DNA of 64,000 nucleotides from Pseudomonas sp. B33.4. Its GTDB lineage: Bacteria > Pseudomonadota > Gammaproteobacteria > Pseudomonadales > Pseudomonadaceae. Under the pieces are notes generated by a model. That model was given only the letters and a program-made list of their open reading frames with translations. It did no database searches and was not told where the DNA came from. The DNA is taken from positions 1,665,001 to 1,729,000 of the forward strand of contig NZ_CP140706.1 in the NCBI RefSeq assembly GCF_034555375.1, written 5' to 3'. Shown one piece after another: positions 55,513-64,000 of this stretch; position 1 is the stretch's first letter, and each line of letters opens with the position of its first letter. The position numbers and the translations under genes are program-made.

Positions 55513-56286
55513 ATGAAGGCAGTTATTTTGGCGGGTGGTCTGGGCACGCGCATCAGTGAAGAGTCGCACCTCAAGCCCAAGCCGATGATCGAGATTGGCG
55601 GCAAGCCAATTCTCTGGCACATCATGAAGCAGTACTCCGCCCACGGGATTCACGACTTCGTGATTTGCCTGGGCTACAAGGGGTACGCGATCAAGGACTT
55701 CTTCGCCAACTACTTCCTGCACACCTCCGACGTGACCTTCGACATGCGCGAAAACCGCATGGACGTTCACCAGAATTACAGCGAGCCATGGCGCGTGACG
55801 CTGATCGATACCGGTGAAGAGACCATGACCGGTGGCCGCCTGGGGCGAGCCGCGCGCTATCTGGAAAATGAAGAAGCCTTCTGCTTCACCTATGGCGACG
55901 GCGTTTCCGATTTGAACATCAGCGCGTTGGTCGATTTCCACCTGACTCACGGCAAACTGGCCACCGTCACCGCCGTGCAACCGCCGGGCCGCTACGGCGC
56001 GCTGGATCGCGAAGGTGACCGGGTGCTGGGTTTCACCGAGAAGCCACGCGGCGACGGTGGCTGGATCAACGGCGGCTTTTTCGTGCTGTCGCCCAAGGTC
56101 CTGCCGCTGATCGAAGGCGATTCGACGTCGTGGGAGTCCGGCCCGCTGGACGGCTTGGCCGCACGCGGTGAGTTGATGGCGTTTCAGCACGACGGTTTCT
56201 GGCAGCCCATGGACACCCTGCGCGACAAGAACCATCTCGAAGCCCTGTGGCAGAGCGGGGAGGCCCCATGGAAGCAATGGGACTGA
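55513..56286 (+). CDS. rfbF: Glucose-1-phosphate cytidylyltransferase
   Basis: A 257-residue nucleotidyltransferase: AVILAGGLGTRISEESHLKP, KPMIEIGGKPILWHIMK, and the RfbF-specific RYGALDREGDRV and WINGGFFVLSPKVL. Makes CDP-glucose from CTP and glucose-1-phosphate. GGGGAGAGG directly precedes the ATG. Overlaps rfbG by 19 bases. Confidence 0.96.
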   Translation: MKAVILAGGLGTRISEESHLKPKPMIEIGGKPILWHIMKQYSAHGIHDFVICLGYKGYAIKDFFANYFLHTSDVTFDMRENRMDVHQNYSEPWRVTLIDTGEETMTGGRLGRAARYLENEEAFCFTYGDGVSDLNISALVDFHLTHGKLATVTAVQPPGRYGALDREGDRVLGFTEKPRGDGGWINGGFFVLSPKVLPLIEGDSTSWESGPLDGLAARGELMAFQHDGFWQPMDTLRDKNHLEALWQSGEAPWKQWD

Positions 56287-57350
56287 GTGCGGATTTCTGG
56301 CGCGGCAAACGCGTCCTCGTTACCGGACACACCGGTTTCAAAGGCAGTTGGCTGACCCTGTGGCTGCAAAGCCTCGGCGCGCAAGTCAGCGGCTTTTCCC
56401 TGGATCCGTCGACCGAGCCGAGCCTGTTCGAACTGGCGCGTGTGCACGAAGGCATCAACGATCAGCGCGGTGATCTGCGTGATCTTGGCGCTCTCCTGGA
56501 AATCATCGCCGACACCGAGCCGGAAATCGTTCTGCACCTGGCCGCTCAGCCACTGGTGCGCGAAGGCTATCGCGACCCACTCGGCACTTATTCCAGCAAC
56601 GTCATGGGCACGCTGAACCTGCTCGAAGCGATTCGTCAGGTCGGTTGCGTGCGCGCCTGCGTGCTGGTGACCACCGACAAGGTCTACGCCAACAAGGAAT
56701 GGCTGTGGCCCTACCGCGAAGACGAAGCGCTCGGTGGCCACGATCCTTACAGCAGCAGCAAGGCCTGCTGTGAACTGCTCGCACAGTCGTATGCCGCGTC
56801 GTTCTTCCCGGCCGACAAGTACGCCGAGCACGGTCTGGCCTTGGCCACCGCGCGTGCCGGCAACGTCCTGGGCGGCGGTGATTTTGCCCCTGAGCGACTG
56901 ATTCCCGACGTGCTCAAAGCCTGGACCGCAGACGAACCGGTGACCCTGCGCTATCCGCAAGCCGTGCGCCCATGGCAGCACGCGCTGGAACCGCTGGCCG
57001 GTTACCTGCAACTGGCCGCCGGCCTCTACGAGCAAGGCCCGGAATACGCCGGGGCGTGGAACTTCGGTCCTGGTGAAGCGGACATGTGCAGCGTTGGCGA
57101 AGTGGTCGAATTGCTCGCCAGCCGCTGGCCGCAAGCGCGTGGTCTGCGCATCGAAAAAAGCGAATTGCACGAGGCTGGCCTGTTGCGCCTGGACAGCAGT
57201 CGCGCGCGCCAAGTGCTTGGCTGGCAGCCACGCTGGACCTTGCAGGCATGCCTGACCCAGACCCTCGACTGGCACCTGGCGTGGCAGAACGGCGATGACA
57301 TGCGCAGCGTCACCCTCGGCCAACTGAACCTGTACCGAGGCGCGCTGTGA
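56268..57350 (+). CDS. rfbG: CDP-glucose 4,6-dehydratase
   Basis: A 360-residue SDR enzyme: NAD-binding GHTGFKGSW (residues 20-28), TTDKVYANKEW, the catalytic YSSSK (about 160) and RAGNVLGGGDFAPERLIPD. Yields CDP-4-keto-6-deoxyglucose. ATG 56268 follows GGGAGG; ATG 56277 is an alternative. Confidence 0.96.
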   Translation: MEAMGLSADFWRGKRVLVTGHTGFKGSWLTLWLQSLGAQVSGFSLDPSTEPSLFELARVHEGINDQRGDLRDLGALLEIIADTEPEIVLHLAAQPLVREGYRDPLGTYSSNVMGTLNLLEAIRQVGCVRACVLVTTDKVYANKEWLWPYREDEALGGHDPYSSSKACCELLAQSYAASFFPADKYAEHGLALATARAGNVLGGGDFAPERLIPDVLKAWTADEPVTLRYPQAVRPWQHALEPLAGYLQLAAGLYEQGPEYAGAWNFGPGEADMCSVGEVVELLASRWPQARGLRIEKSELHEAGLLRLDSSRARQVLGWQPRWTLQACLTQTLDWHLAWQNGDDMRSVTLGQLNLYRGAL

Positions 57351-61668: not shown

Positions 61669-61717
61669 TCGACAAACAACGATGAGTTTTCGGCGACGCG
61701 CCGTTTGTGGGGAATAT

Positions 61718-64000
61718 ATGCAAGGCAAGAACACTTCAGGAACCGATCTGGCACTCAACGAACAGTTGACCGTTGTGCTGATCTCTCACGAACGCCCGGC
61801 GTTTCTGCTTAGAGCCATTCGCTTTTACAGCAGCCTGCCGTGCAGAATTCTGGTGCTCGATTCATCGGCGGTGGCGCTGAAGGGCATTCCCGAGGAATTC
61901 ACCCGCGTGGATTATCAGCACTTGCCGCAGTTCGGCTACTGGGGGATTCGCGCCAAGCTGGCTTACGGTGTCGAGCAGCTGCAAACGCCTTACATGGTGT
62001 TTGCCGCCGACGATGACTTCCTTGTGCATGATGCCTTGTACGAAGCCGTGGCATTCATGGATGCCAACCCTGATTACAGCCTGTGTCATGGCTACAGCCT
62101 GATGTATCTGGCATTGGCCAACAGCGTCAATTACTACCGCCGTGACAAGAAAGTCTGCGAAGACTACTCGGCCGATCAGGCCGAGGAGCGCTTGCTCGAT
62201 TACATGCAACAGTACCTGCCGCCGTTCTATGCCGTGCAGCGTACGGCGATCTTGCGCGACTGGTATGCGGCCATGCCGCAAGACACGATCTTCCAGTGGC
62301 AGGAAGTCGGTCACACCTTTTACATGCTGGCCCGGGGCAAGGTGCGGATTCTGCCGATCCCGTATGTCGTGCGCGAAATCAACTACGAGCAGTCCGATCA
62401 CAACACCGAGATCTATCACACCCTGGCCTATATGGATGGCAAGAGCGTGGCCGGGCGCGAAGCGTTTGCCGAGTTCCTCGTGTCATTGCCGACCCAGCTC
62501 CAGCATCAGGATCCAGAGCAGGGCAAACAGTTTGCGCTGAAGAGTTTTGCCACGCTGGCCGAAAGCCTGCGGACCTACCGGGCACTCACCGCCGAGTTGA
62601 TCTTCGAGTCGACCTGGATCGATATCGAGACCGGCCCGCAGCGTCGGTTCGGGCCGAAGCAATACGTGGAAATGCCTTTCTATAACCAGGTGTTTTTCGA
62701 TCAACTGACGCAATTCGAATTTCTGTTGCACGCGATGCCGGCCGGACGCGTTCAGCTCAAAGAGCTGGAAGGCATTTGGGCTCGCCAGCAGAGCCTGATG
62801 CTGGCACGCAACAATGACACCCCGGAAAGCGTGCTCGACCGCTTGTGGCAGGCGCACGACGCCAACGTGTTCAATCGCGCGGTGATCAAGCAACTGCTCG
62901 TGCAATTGCAACCGCTGGACGAGGAAGACGACGCGCCAGTGCTGCGCGATTGGGTCGCGCGTCTGGACGCGGTGTTGCTCGAAGGGCATCAGCCGACATT
63001 CGCCAAAATGCTCACCGGCCGCCTGCTCGAGTGGCTCGCCGCGCGTGCGCCGGATACCGAGCAGGCCGCGGCGATTGCCCGTCACCTGGCAGACAATGCC
63101 GGTGGTCCGCAGTTCGGCATCTTTCTGCTCGATCTGGACAACGACATCGACAAGTTGCAAATCTCTCTGGACAGCTTGCTCGAAGGCCACAGCAAAGCCT
63201 TCAAGGTCGTGGTATTCACCACGGGTGAGCCGCCGGCTGCAACCACGGCACAAAATACCCTGCACTTTGTGCGAGTGACCCAAGGCAACTTCGTCGACAA
63301 GCTCAACCAGAGCGTTAATCAATCGACCTGCGACTGGCTGCTGCTGGTTGAGGCGGGTGAAGAATTCACGGCTGCCGGCCTGTTGCGTGCCGGCCTGGAA
63401 CTGATGGCTGCGCCAGGTGTGCGGGCGGTTGCCACCGATGAAATCCAGCGCCAGGAAAACGGGGCGCTGGTGGATATGTTCCGCCCGGGCTTCAACCTGG
63501 ACCTGCTGCAAAGCGTTCCGTCACTGATGGCTCGGCACTGGTTGATTCGTCGCGAAGTGCTGACAGGGCTCGGCGGTTATCAGGCCGATTTCAGCAAGGC
63601 GCTGGAGCTGGATGTGCTGCTGCGCATCATCGAGGAGGGTGGCCTCGACGGTCTGGCCCATCTCGATGAGCCCTTGCTGATCACCCGGGCGCCGGTGCTG
63701 GAAGAAAACCCTCACGAACGTCAGGCGCTGCTGCGCCACTTGGGCAATCGTGGTTACAAGGCTCAGGTCACTTCGACGCAGCCTGGCACCTGGCAGATTG
63801 ACTATCGTCATGCCGAGCGGCCGCTGGTCTCGGTGATTGTCGCCGCTGGCGACGATCTTGCCGCCTTGAAACGCTGCCTGGATGGCGTGCTGCTCAGAAC
63901 CCGTTACACCCGCTATGAGCTGTTGATTGCGGTCAACCCGAACTCGTCGGCCGAGGTCAACGACTGGTTGGCAACGCTGCACAACGGCAAAGTGCGGGTA
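61718..64000 (+). CDS. Second giant glycosyltransferase (3' truncated by window)
   Basis: From ATG 61718 the frame is open to the last base (761 codons, no stop). It begins with a TIGR00180-like glycosyltransferase domain (LTVVLISHERPAFLLRAIRF, DDD at 98-100), a helical middle, a degenerate GT-A-like part (about 450-700) and the start of a GT2 domain (PLVSVIVAAGDDLAALKRCL, about 711). The parts around FRPGFNLDLL and IDYRHAERPLVSVI match the same places in the 1197-residue enzyme upstream, so the two are modular paralogues. Probable transferase for the sugar made by this operon. Confidence 0.85.
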   Translation, partial: MQGKNTSGTDLALNEQLTVVLISHERPAFLLRAIRFYSSLPCRILVLDSSAVALKGIPEEFTRVDYQHLPQFGYWGIRAKLAYGVEQLQTPYMVFAADDDFLVHDALYEAVAFMDANPDYSLCHGYSLMYLALANSVNYYRRDKKVCEDYSADQAEERLLDYMQQYLPPFYAVQRTAILRDWYAAMPQDTIFQWQEVGHTFYMLARGKVRILPIPYVVREINYEQSDHNTEIYHTLAYMDGKSVAGREAFAEFLVSLPTQLQHQDPEQGKQFALKSFATLAESLRTYRALTAELIFESTWIDIETGPQRRFGPKQYVEMPFYNQVFFDQLTQFEFLLHAMPAGRVQLKELEGIWARQQSLMLARNNDTPESVLDRLWQAHDANVFNRAVIKQLLVQLQPLDEEDDAPVLRDWVARLDAVLLEGHQPTFAKMLTGRLLEWLAARAPDTEQAAAIARHLADNAGGPQFGIFLLDLDNDIDKLQISLDSLLEGHSKAFKVVVFTTGEPPAATTAQNTLHFVRVTQGNFVDKLNQSVNQSTCDWLLLVEAGEEFTAAGLLRAGLELMAAPGVRAVATDEIQRQENGALVDMFRPGFNLDLLQSVPSLMARHWLIRREVLTGLGGYQADFSKALELDVLLRIIEEGGLDGLAHLDEPLLITRAPVLEENPHERQALLRHLGNRGYKAQVTSTQPGTWQIDYRHAERPLVSVIVAAGDDLAALKRCLDGVLLRTRYTRYELLIAVNPNSSAEVNDWLATLHNGKVRV

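Follow-up and report, generated by a model that had tools for sequence, protein, structure and literature searches.

Vinelose (6-deoxy-3-C-methyl-2-O-methyl-L-talose, linked to cytidine diphosphate, CDP) and kansosamine (4-amino-4,6-dideoxy-3-C-methyl-2-O-methyl-L-mannose, which is N-acylated) are the chemical precedents for the sugar that we propose for an eight-gene operon of Pseudomonas sp. B33.4. The operon lies in a stretch of 64,000 nucleotides (positions 1,665,001 to 1,729,000 of contig NZ_CP140706.1), hereafter the window, whose first letter is position 1 and on whose + strand all features given below are encoded. CDP-vinelose was reportedly isolated from Azotobacter vinelandii and is said to have been known since the 1960s, and the source for the kansosamine sugar is said to be Hunter et al. 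1984. Sugar C-methyltransferases of the TylC3/TcaB9 type work on deoxythymidine diphosphate (dTDP) sugars of antibiotics.

For flagellin, the accessible text on Pseudomonas syringae describes a viosamine island and the flagellin transferases Fgt1 and Fgt2, with published lengths of 241, 1173, and 253 amino acids (aa) for VioM, VioT, and VioR (PMC3927599). Genes for CDP-4-keto-6-deoxyglucose have been predicted in the flagellar islands of four enterobacterial strains (PMC4875605), as has a paratose route with RfbH/RfbS in that of Clostridium butyricum (PMC13317340), and the available parts of these two reports mention no C-methyltransferase route. N-acyl-kansosamine is present in the lipooligosaccharide (LOS) of Mycobacterium kansasii, whose cluster is given as glycosyltransferase, complement-strand epimerase, glycosyltransferase, glucose-1-phosphate cytidylyltransferase, dehydratase, rhamnose epimerase, methyltransferase, polyketide synthase, and acyl-CoA synthetase, with its genes not assigned to kansosamine in the available text (PMC4403928). 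Among the literature matches listed, we recognised no paper on the operon described here, and none was found for flagellin glycosylation combined with glucose-1-phosphate cytidylyltransferase.

We propose, with a probability of roughly 0.7, that the operon makes a CDP-linked 4-acylamido-3-C-methyl-4,6-dideoxyhexose of the L series, kansosamine-like and probably O-methylated (position 2 is favoured), which would be put on flagellin by giant cytoplasmic glycosyltransferases. The proposal draws on the observed gene families, their order and conservation, the swapping of operon tails, the linkage to flagellar genes, and matching cassettes in two other settings. We infer the chemistry, the stereochemistry, the acyl group, the position of the O-methyl group, the transferase, and the acceptor from named relatives. 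Like P. syringae, the strain would place an N-acylated and O-methylated 4-amino-4,6-dideoxy sugar on flagellin by giant transferases, whereas the P. syringae sugar is dTDP-linked and without C-methyl, its genes are located elsewhere, and its VioM-like protein falls outside the CmcI family. The enterobacterial and C. butyricum islands, as far as their accessible descriptions go, share the presence of rfbF/rfbG or CDP-4-keto-6-deoxyglucose genes in flagellar glycosylation islands, and the M. kansasii LOS cluster shares the order rfbF-rfbG-rmlC-C-methyltransferase-aminotransferase, although its acceptor is a glycolipid rather than flagellin. Although earlier work had already predicted CDP-sugar genes for flagellar islands, the C-methyl/amino variant is set apart by the lack of RfbH, by its difference from the viosamine genes, and by an acylating and O-methylating pair that is not of the M. 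kansasii type.

Operon genes and the predicted sugar

An earlier interpretation made from the letters alone (the sequence-only reading) had placed eight genes here, and NCBIfam and Pfam matches bear out each of them. The operon begins with a glucose-1-phosphate cytidylyltransferase (rfbF, 55513..56286; TIGR02623, 461.8 bits, cut-off 300.25) and a CDP-glucose 4,6-dehydratase (rfbG, 56268..57350; TIGR02622, 472.3 bits, cut-off 278.45), both above curated equivalog cut-offs. According to the accessible part of a review, TDK...YxxxK is the signature of CDP-glucose dehydratases (PMC8987622), and the TTDK...YSSSK of RfbG fits it in the form [ST]DK...YxxxK. These are followed by an RmlC-like 3,5-epimerase or 3-epimerase (57347..57907; PF00908, expect value (E) 1.5e-57; TIGR01221, 155.1 bits, cut-off 155.75), a sugar 3-C-methyltransferase (CMT, 57904..59130; PF08421, PF13489, and PF08484, or Methyltransf_13/23/14), a pyridoxal phosphate (PLP)-dependent 4-aminotransferase of the DegT/DnrJ family (59127..60248; PF01041, E 1.6e-120), an N-acyltransferase of the NeuD/PglB/VioB type (60245..60910; TIGR03570, 163.2 bits, cut-off 160.8), a methyltransferase of the CmcI/RMNT family that depends on S-adenosylmethionine (SAM) and is predicted to O-methylate a sugar (60940..61668; PF04989, E 9.1e-97), and the giant glycosyltransferase GTB. 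Four 4-base overlaps (57347/57350, 57904/57907, 59127/59130, and 60245/60248) follow from the open reading frame coordinates, and the 19-base overlap between rfbF and rfbG holds if RfbG begins at the ATG at 56268 and not at the longer open reading frame start at 56247.

With these assignments, RfbF would convert cytidine triphosphate and glucose-1-phosphate to CDP-glucose, from which RfbG would form CDP-4-keto-6-deoxyglucose. The RmlC-like enzyme would epimerise at C3/C5, CMT would transfer CH3 onto C3, adjacent to the ketone, and the DegT enzyme would aminate C4, after which the NeuD-like enzyme would N-acylate the C4 amine and the giant glycosyltransferases would bring the sugar into a flagellin O-glycan in the cytoplasm. 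Because a CmcI-type methyltransferase is encoded, an O-methyl group is predicted as well; 2-O-methylation is the reaction of the rhamnosyl methyltransferase family. The N-acetyl form of the proposed sugar would have a calculated residue mass of 215.116 Da.

CMT has the architecture of the TylC3/TcaB9 type (Methyltransf_13, a SAM domain, and Methyltransf_14) and matches PDB proteins over its full length, with E values of 5.1e-70 to 1.9e-66 over 10 sequences, all named 3-C-methyltransferases or TcaB9 and including 5t64; it carries the motifs CxxC...CxxC and YHEHY and is unlike those enzymes in sitting within a CDP cassette. Perosamine synthase (3bn1/3dr7) is the nearest PDB relative of the aminotransferase, the NeuD-like protein has the perosamine N-acetyltransferase 4ea7, and the CmcI-type protein is weakly related to CmcI (2bm8, 1.6e-10). 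The route of C-methylation, amination, and acylation read from the letters alone is upheld as regards its enzyme families, but the route is not limited to dTDP sugars, as CDP-vinelose and the kansosamine loci described below point to CDP. The genome is a single contig of 6,604,192 bases in which the operon's rfbF is the sole match at E 1e-20. A dTDP-glucose dehydratase above its cut-off (509.8 bits, cut-off 365.1) is encoded elsewhere, so that a separate dTDP sugar such as rhamnose is possible. The sequence-only reading that E1 and E3 are both missing was correct: the DegT protein retains its PLP lysine (in SFHGTK) and scores far below the RfbH cut-off (165.7 bits, cut-off 423), so that E1/RfbH is absent, and no E3-like family is matched among the eight operon proteins, so neither marker of the classical CDP-3,6-dideoxyhexose pathway is found in the cluster.

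One outside anchor for the predicted product comes from mycobacteria, where CMT is matched at E 1e-70 in 108 of 297 genomes; of these, 20 were inspected over about 4.2 kb and eight over a wider stretch, with Pfam applied to G357 and to one glycosyltransferase of G487. Four of these genomes show the published LOS-cluster order, with some stretches missing an end and with the second glycosyltransferase on the minus strand, which the published gene name does not mark. Their mutual identity over 10-20 kb is 91-94%, and on this and on gene order we take them as probable members of the M. kansasii complex. CMT and the aminotransferase sit between the epimerase and the methyltransferase in all four, and identity to the window is 66-67% for the aminotransferase, 53-55% for CMT, and 71-73% for RfbF, with one rfbF match in each genome. 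The window and these loci thus hold rfbF, rfbG, rmlC, CMT, and the C4 aminotransferase together, and among the loci compared, cassette aminotransferases are 57-100% identical to the window's, whereas everything else found with that query reaches at most 31%. Pfam assigns the other genes of G357 to SDR, GT2, ATP-grasp, SDR, TylF methyltransferase, polyketide synthase, and AMP-binding enzyme families; the remaining genes were recognised from their size and the beginning of their sequence. Behind the aminotransferase, proteins of the ATP-grasp, SDR, and TylF types stand where the window has NeuD and CmcI.

A sugar on CDP and flagellin that belongs to a 3-epimerised D series or is methylated at C5, and that is not kansosamine-like, is an alternative that we consider unlikely. 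It would suit the score of the RmlC-like protein, which falls short of the equivalog cut-off, the 3-epimerases 4hn0 and 4hmz among its PDB relatives, and the identity of only 59-67% to the RmlC of loci without CMT. The best PDB matches of the same protein, however, are 3,5-epimerases (1dzr, 1.2e-34), and the PDB matches of CMT are those named above, with its YHEHY aligned to their YDEHF.

Flagellar setting and candidate transferases

Of 149 genomes sampled from the genus, 50 gave a match to the CMT protein, as did 13 of 119 sampled from the family (6 of 19 genera); the two samples overlap. All genus loci were thus selected by a CMT match, and 45 of the 50 were used, the window's own included, G021, G055, G058, G083, and G102 being excluded because their match lies near a contig end. 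The family search added 10 genomes that were new compared with the genus sample, of which nine were fetched and G246 was left out. A branched 4-amino-4,6-dideoxy CDP sugar destined for flagellin, as the sequence-only reading had it, would fit not only the family cut-offs, the dehydratase motif, and the M. kansasii-type cassette but also the surroundings of these loci: flgL, fliC, or fliD lies within the fetched stretch of 40 of the 45 genus loci and fliC in all nine further loci, and in G122, G117, G173, and G239 no more than about 1 kb separates cmcI from the fliC gene behind it. Two of the loci without a flagellar gene (G033, G053) end at a contig end or have a second stretch that was not included.

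In the window, the island is bounded upstream by a flgL-like gene (49987..51555, 522 aa; flagellin N-terminal domain match at contig 1714996-1715409). It is followed by GTA (51665..55258), a giant glycosyltransferase of 1197 aa with two GT2 domains and a GT1-like C-terminus in the position of P. syringae Fgt1. GTB begins at about 61643, with alternative ATG starts at 61682 or 61718, and runs past position 64000 of the window to L003:9642 (999 aa by the longest frame); it combines an N-terminal domain of the TIGR00180 family (residues 41-245) with a C-terminal GT2 domain and stands in the position of Fgt2. Sugar genes and glycosyltransferases here adjoin flagellin genes, as in a flagellin glycosylation island.

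Between GTA and rfbF there is a hairpin with a T run that resembles an intrinsic terminator (55288..55323; fold -26.8 kcal/mol, z -6.62, none of 200 shuffles equally good), and a sigma-54-like site, TGGCGCGTTTCCTGCA (55361..55376), lies 152 bases upstream of the rfbF start. Both were spotted by eye and then tested; a pattern scan for promoters and terminators listed neither. At least 10 of 12 positions of the site match in 36 of 51 loci (window included) compared with 13 of 1020 simple shuffles, a control that overstates independence as the loci are kin. The operon is probably transcribed from this putative promoter together with flagellar genes.

Among the candidate transferases, a GTB-like giant protein accompanies the cassette in 38 of the 45 genus loci, while G122, G117, G027, G173, and G239 have a TPR-GT41-like protein instead, and the two Azotobacter loci the same with a GT2 domain added (Pfam was applied to G122 and to the Azotobacter pair). 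We compared identity to the window in GTB residues 36-300 with that in the C-terminal half, in the 54 of 63 loci with an alignment over both ranges (G034, G122, G117, G027, G119, G028, G092, G037, and G106 dropped out). The ratio is at least 0.75 in 42 cassette loci, six of them without CMT. It does not exceed 0.71 in the 10 loci that lack CDP genes, and it is 0.56 in G089 and 0.67 in G124, two loci with a different CDP pathway (44 CDP loci versus 10, Mann-Whitney p 4e-6, a loose value as the loci are kin). The N-terminal domain of GTB is therefore named here as a candidate transferase for the branched sugar. Beyond overall relatedness, no clear covariation of GTB with the choice of aminotransferase or reductase was seen, and GTA showed none with the cassette in 31 genomes. 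GTB-like matches, many of them partial, occur in 95 of the 149 genus genomes.

About half of the island lies beyond the window, which stops inside GTB. Between GTB and fliC (L003:9673-18000 and L004:1-2041) come PseB (568.3 bits, cut-off 407.75), PseC (562.6 bits, cut-off 423.5), a methylase associated with pseudaminic acid (Pse), and PseF, then PseG with a GNAT-like C-terminus, PseI, KASIII, an MptE-like/Maf protein, and fliC. A PseH-like part is apparently fused to PseG, at a low score (35.8 bits, cut-off 93.1). As the island encodes a Maf-like protein and the enzymes for pseudaminic acid, two modifications of flagellin are predicted, and the branched sugar of the sequence-only reading is one of them. 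We favour the Pse/Maf modification as probably separate from the branched sugar. The same CDP sugar might instead extend or cap a pseudaminic acid placed by Maf, the two halves of the island building one oligosaccharide, which we regard as improbable. Both modules do lie in one island of the window genome, and pseI and maf each occur in at least 32 of these 45 loci, which need not coincide (lower bounds, as some stretches stop early); the polar flagellins of some Aeromonas strains are also said, in the available text of a report, to bear a heterologous glycan and not a single pseudaminic acid-like sugar (PMC7874193). In the stretches seen, however, the modules are independent, as each occurs without the other: G144, G148, and G024 have the CDP cassette but no Pse or Maf genes, G020 and G125 have Pse and Maf genes but no CDP cassette, and G018, G010, and G114 have the flgL-GTA-GTB-KASIII-fliC scaffold with neither, the remainders of the genomes not having been searched for Pse/Maf.

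That the operon feeds O-antigen or another surface polysaccharide is a very improbable alternative. Relatives of the front enzymes do occur without flagellar genes, namely in three genus loci (G119, G092, and G037), on a plasmid of Desulfolutivibrio, and in the LOS-type cluster of mycobacteria. The flagellar linkage counted above speaks against it, as do the sigma-54-like site, which is present in most flagellar loci but reaches a score of 6 in G119 and is without any candidate in G092 or G037, and the single rfbF of the genome.

Several points weigh against a kansosamine-like sugar on flagellin. In G119, G092, and G037 (CMT 52-54% identical) the stretch resembles a polysaccharide locus, and two of the three carry PseB-like (WbpM-type) genes further along. 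Mycobacteria are without flagella, yet more than a third have a CMT match at the threshold given above, so that the front enzymes also serve other glycans, and only the first five genes match the M. kansasii type because NeuD and CmcI are missing there. Two flagellar loci, G122 (8/12) and G080 (6/12), have only a weak sigma-54-like site, the covariation of GTB may be hitch-hiking because GTB abuts the cassette, and the sub-threshold score of the RmlC-like protein bears on the predicted specificity at C3/C5.

A classical CDP-3,6-dideoxyhexose or a dTDP-viosamine-type sugar is hardly credible: RfbF and RfbG begin the classical route as well as the one proposed here and the cassette-less G018 has an apparent viosamine island, but the operon is without RfbH, true RfbH sits in the islands of G106 and G089, and the aminotransferase is 32% identical to VioA versus 66-67% to the M. 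kansasii-type enzyme. Both routes were dropped on these grounds, the viosamine type also because the VioM-like protein lies outside the CmcI family, for which reason VioM was likewise dropped as a guide to the O-methyl position. The viosamine set vioA/B/M/T/S/R and acp does not appear as an island here, where no search for the acyl carrier protein gene was made; besides the aminotransferase, NeuD is 31% identical to VioB over 128 residues and GTA is nearest to a VioT-like protein of 1173 aa (34%).

Other pseudomonad flagellar islands contain rfbF-rfbG downstream of GTB (G124, G106, and G089; L120, L123, and L129), in G106 and G089 followed by the true RfbH (738.3 and 730.8 bits, cut-off 423), the start of a classical CDP-3,6-dideoxyhexose pathway; in G124 a frame without an RfbH score stands at that place. 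A second GTB-like frame is encoded elsewhere (E 1e-100) in seven of the 10 genomes without CDP genes and also in the cassette-bearing G068. In G018, which like P. syringae pairs the scaffold from flgL to fliC with viosamine-type genes, three of them of published size, this frame measures 1173 aa, and its neighbourhood (L124:5685-14235) comprises genes with the lengths published for VioM, VioT, and VioR (241, 1173, and 253 aa). The CDP cassette and the viosamine island may replace each other, with only G018 annotated in this respect.

A modular cassette across pseudomonads

The order rfbF-rfbG-rmlC-CMT is constant in the 45 genus loci and in the nine loci of the family search and is therefore no chance arrangement, whereas the tail that follows it varies. 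Eleven of the 45, the window included, have aminotransferase, NeuD, and CmcI, and three have the aminotransferase with or without CmcI. A reductase with CmcI is found in 29 loci, 24 of which contain an extra C-methyltransferase-like gene, one locus has a reductase without CmcI, and G027 encodes a short hexapeptide protein together with a reductase-like one. The sequence-only reading had suggested looking for the same gene order beside flagellar genes in other genomes, and it recurs there in its first four genes, with the full tail present, within the 45, in the 11 loci just mentioned. Rather than being unique, the operon is one swappable variant among others, and enzymes like those of its front part are also encoded away from flagellar islands.

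Over residues 1-100, CmcI is 81-98% identical to the window's in nine loci with an aminotransferase and 55-63% in 25 with a reductase, whereas over CMT residues 1-200 the identities of the two groups overlap (G000, G122, G117, G027, G033, G053, G134, G119, G028, G092, and G037 were excluded from both comparisons). The aminotransferase, NeuD, and CmcI genes vary and are exchanged as a block. That CmcI tracks the C4 substituent would be expected if it acts on the same ring, and plain co-transfer of neighbouring DNA would give the same pattern.

Six genomes were chosen for having GTB and CmcI but no CMT match (L104, L106, L107, L108, L109, and L110). Their loci contain rfbF, rfbG, a reductase, an extra C-methyltransferase-like gene, and CmcI, together with a different RmlC (59-67% identity). 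In G080, the alignments of rfbF and rfbG are both split in two, and this genome counts as lacking CDP genes under the coverage rule of the tail tally and as having them in the GTB comparison. The scaffold without the CDP cassette is found also in G066, G056, G094, G026, and G050.

Five flagellar cassettes with an aminotransferase tail have several kb of extra DNA before CmcI (G028, G259, G238, G214, and G208; L046, L091, L093, L096, and L097). In G028, this holds genes for a WbqC-like protein, an SDR, and an ATP-grasp-like protein, with no NeuD match. G028 and the M. kansasii-type locus share ATP-grasp and SDR genes behind the aminotransferase, a hint of what could be another acylation route.

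Azotobacter and the wider spread of the cassette

The reductase form of the cassette leads back to vinelose. The Azotobacter genome G200 encodes three full NifH matches and a CMT that is identical to an Azotobacter-named protein, and it is very likely A. vinelandii, a species with three nitrogenases. Its single rfbF match and single CMT match, at the limits used, fall in one locus with the order rfbF-rfbG-rmlC-CMT-hexapeptide acyltransferase-SDR-CmcI-PhyH-TylF methyltransferase, followed on the opposite strand by a TPR-GT41-GT2 protein of 1257 aa, with flagellin about 6 kb from CmcI. The second Azotobacter genome (G164) has an SDR, an extra methyltransferase, and CmcI, also near flagellin. The G200 locus resembles the window in its four front genes, its CmcI, and its closeness to flagellin, whereas an SDR, presumed to be the 4-ketoreductase of a vinelose-type route, and a hexapeptide acyltransferase replace the window's aminotransferase and NeuD, and PhyH and TylF come after. 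The reductase-form operon of Azotobacter may thus explain CDP-vinelose. Identity of the Azotobacter CMT is 61% with the window's protein but, among the best 120 of 8000 scored proteins, five of which bear an organism name, 77-78% with two named for Oceanibaculum and an alphaproteobacterial metagenome-assembled genome; this closer relation suggests that the cassette moved.

In the 20 mycobacterial loci, the aminotransferase is found in six, and a reductase, an extra methyltransferase, or CmcI lies within about 1.5 kb in 10, so that the pseudomonad type of tail choice recurs there.

We give even odds to the broader idea that a cross-phylum CDP cassette with interchangeable tails is the source of both CDP-vinelose (with a reductase, in Azotobacter) and N-acyl-kansosamine (with an aminotransferase, in M. 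kansasii), and that pseudomonads swap tails by recombination and so alter their flagellin sugar. If this is true, CDP-vinelose gains genes and a destination and N-acyl-kansosamine a candidate pathway, and C-methyl branching would occur on CDP sugars in ordinary soil bacteria. Exchange of a short operon tail would then alter the sugar on the flagellar surface, and pseudomonad flagellin and a mycobacterial surface lipid would bear sugars of one kind.

A search of 50,697 phage records returned seven matches, all weak or partial (six at 23-29% identity and one at 51% over 46% of the query). Distant CMT relatives, at 26-29% identity, are encoded in four uncultured-phage records of 0.63-0.74 Mb (H31, H33, H34, and H35).

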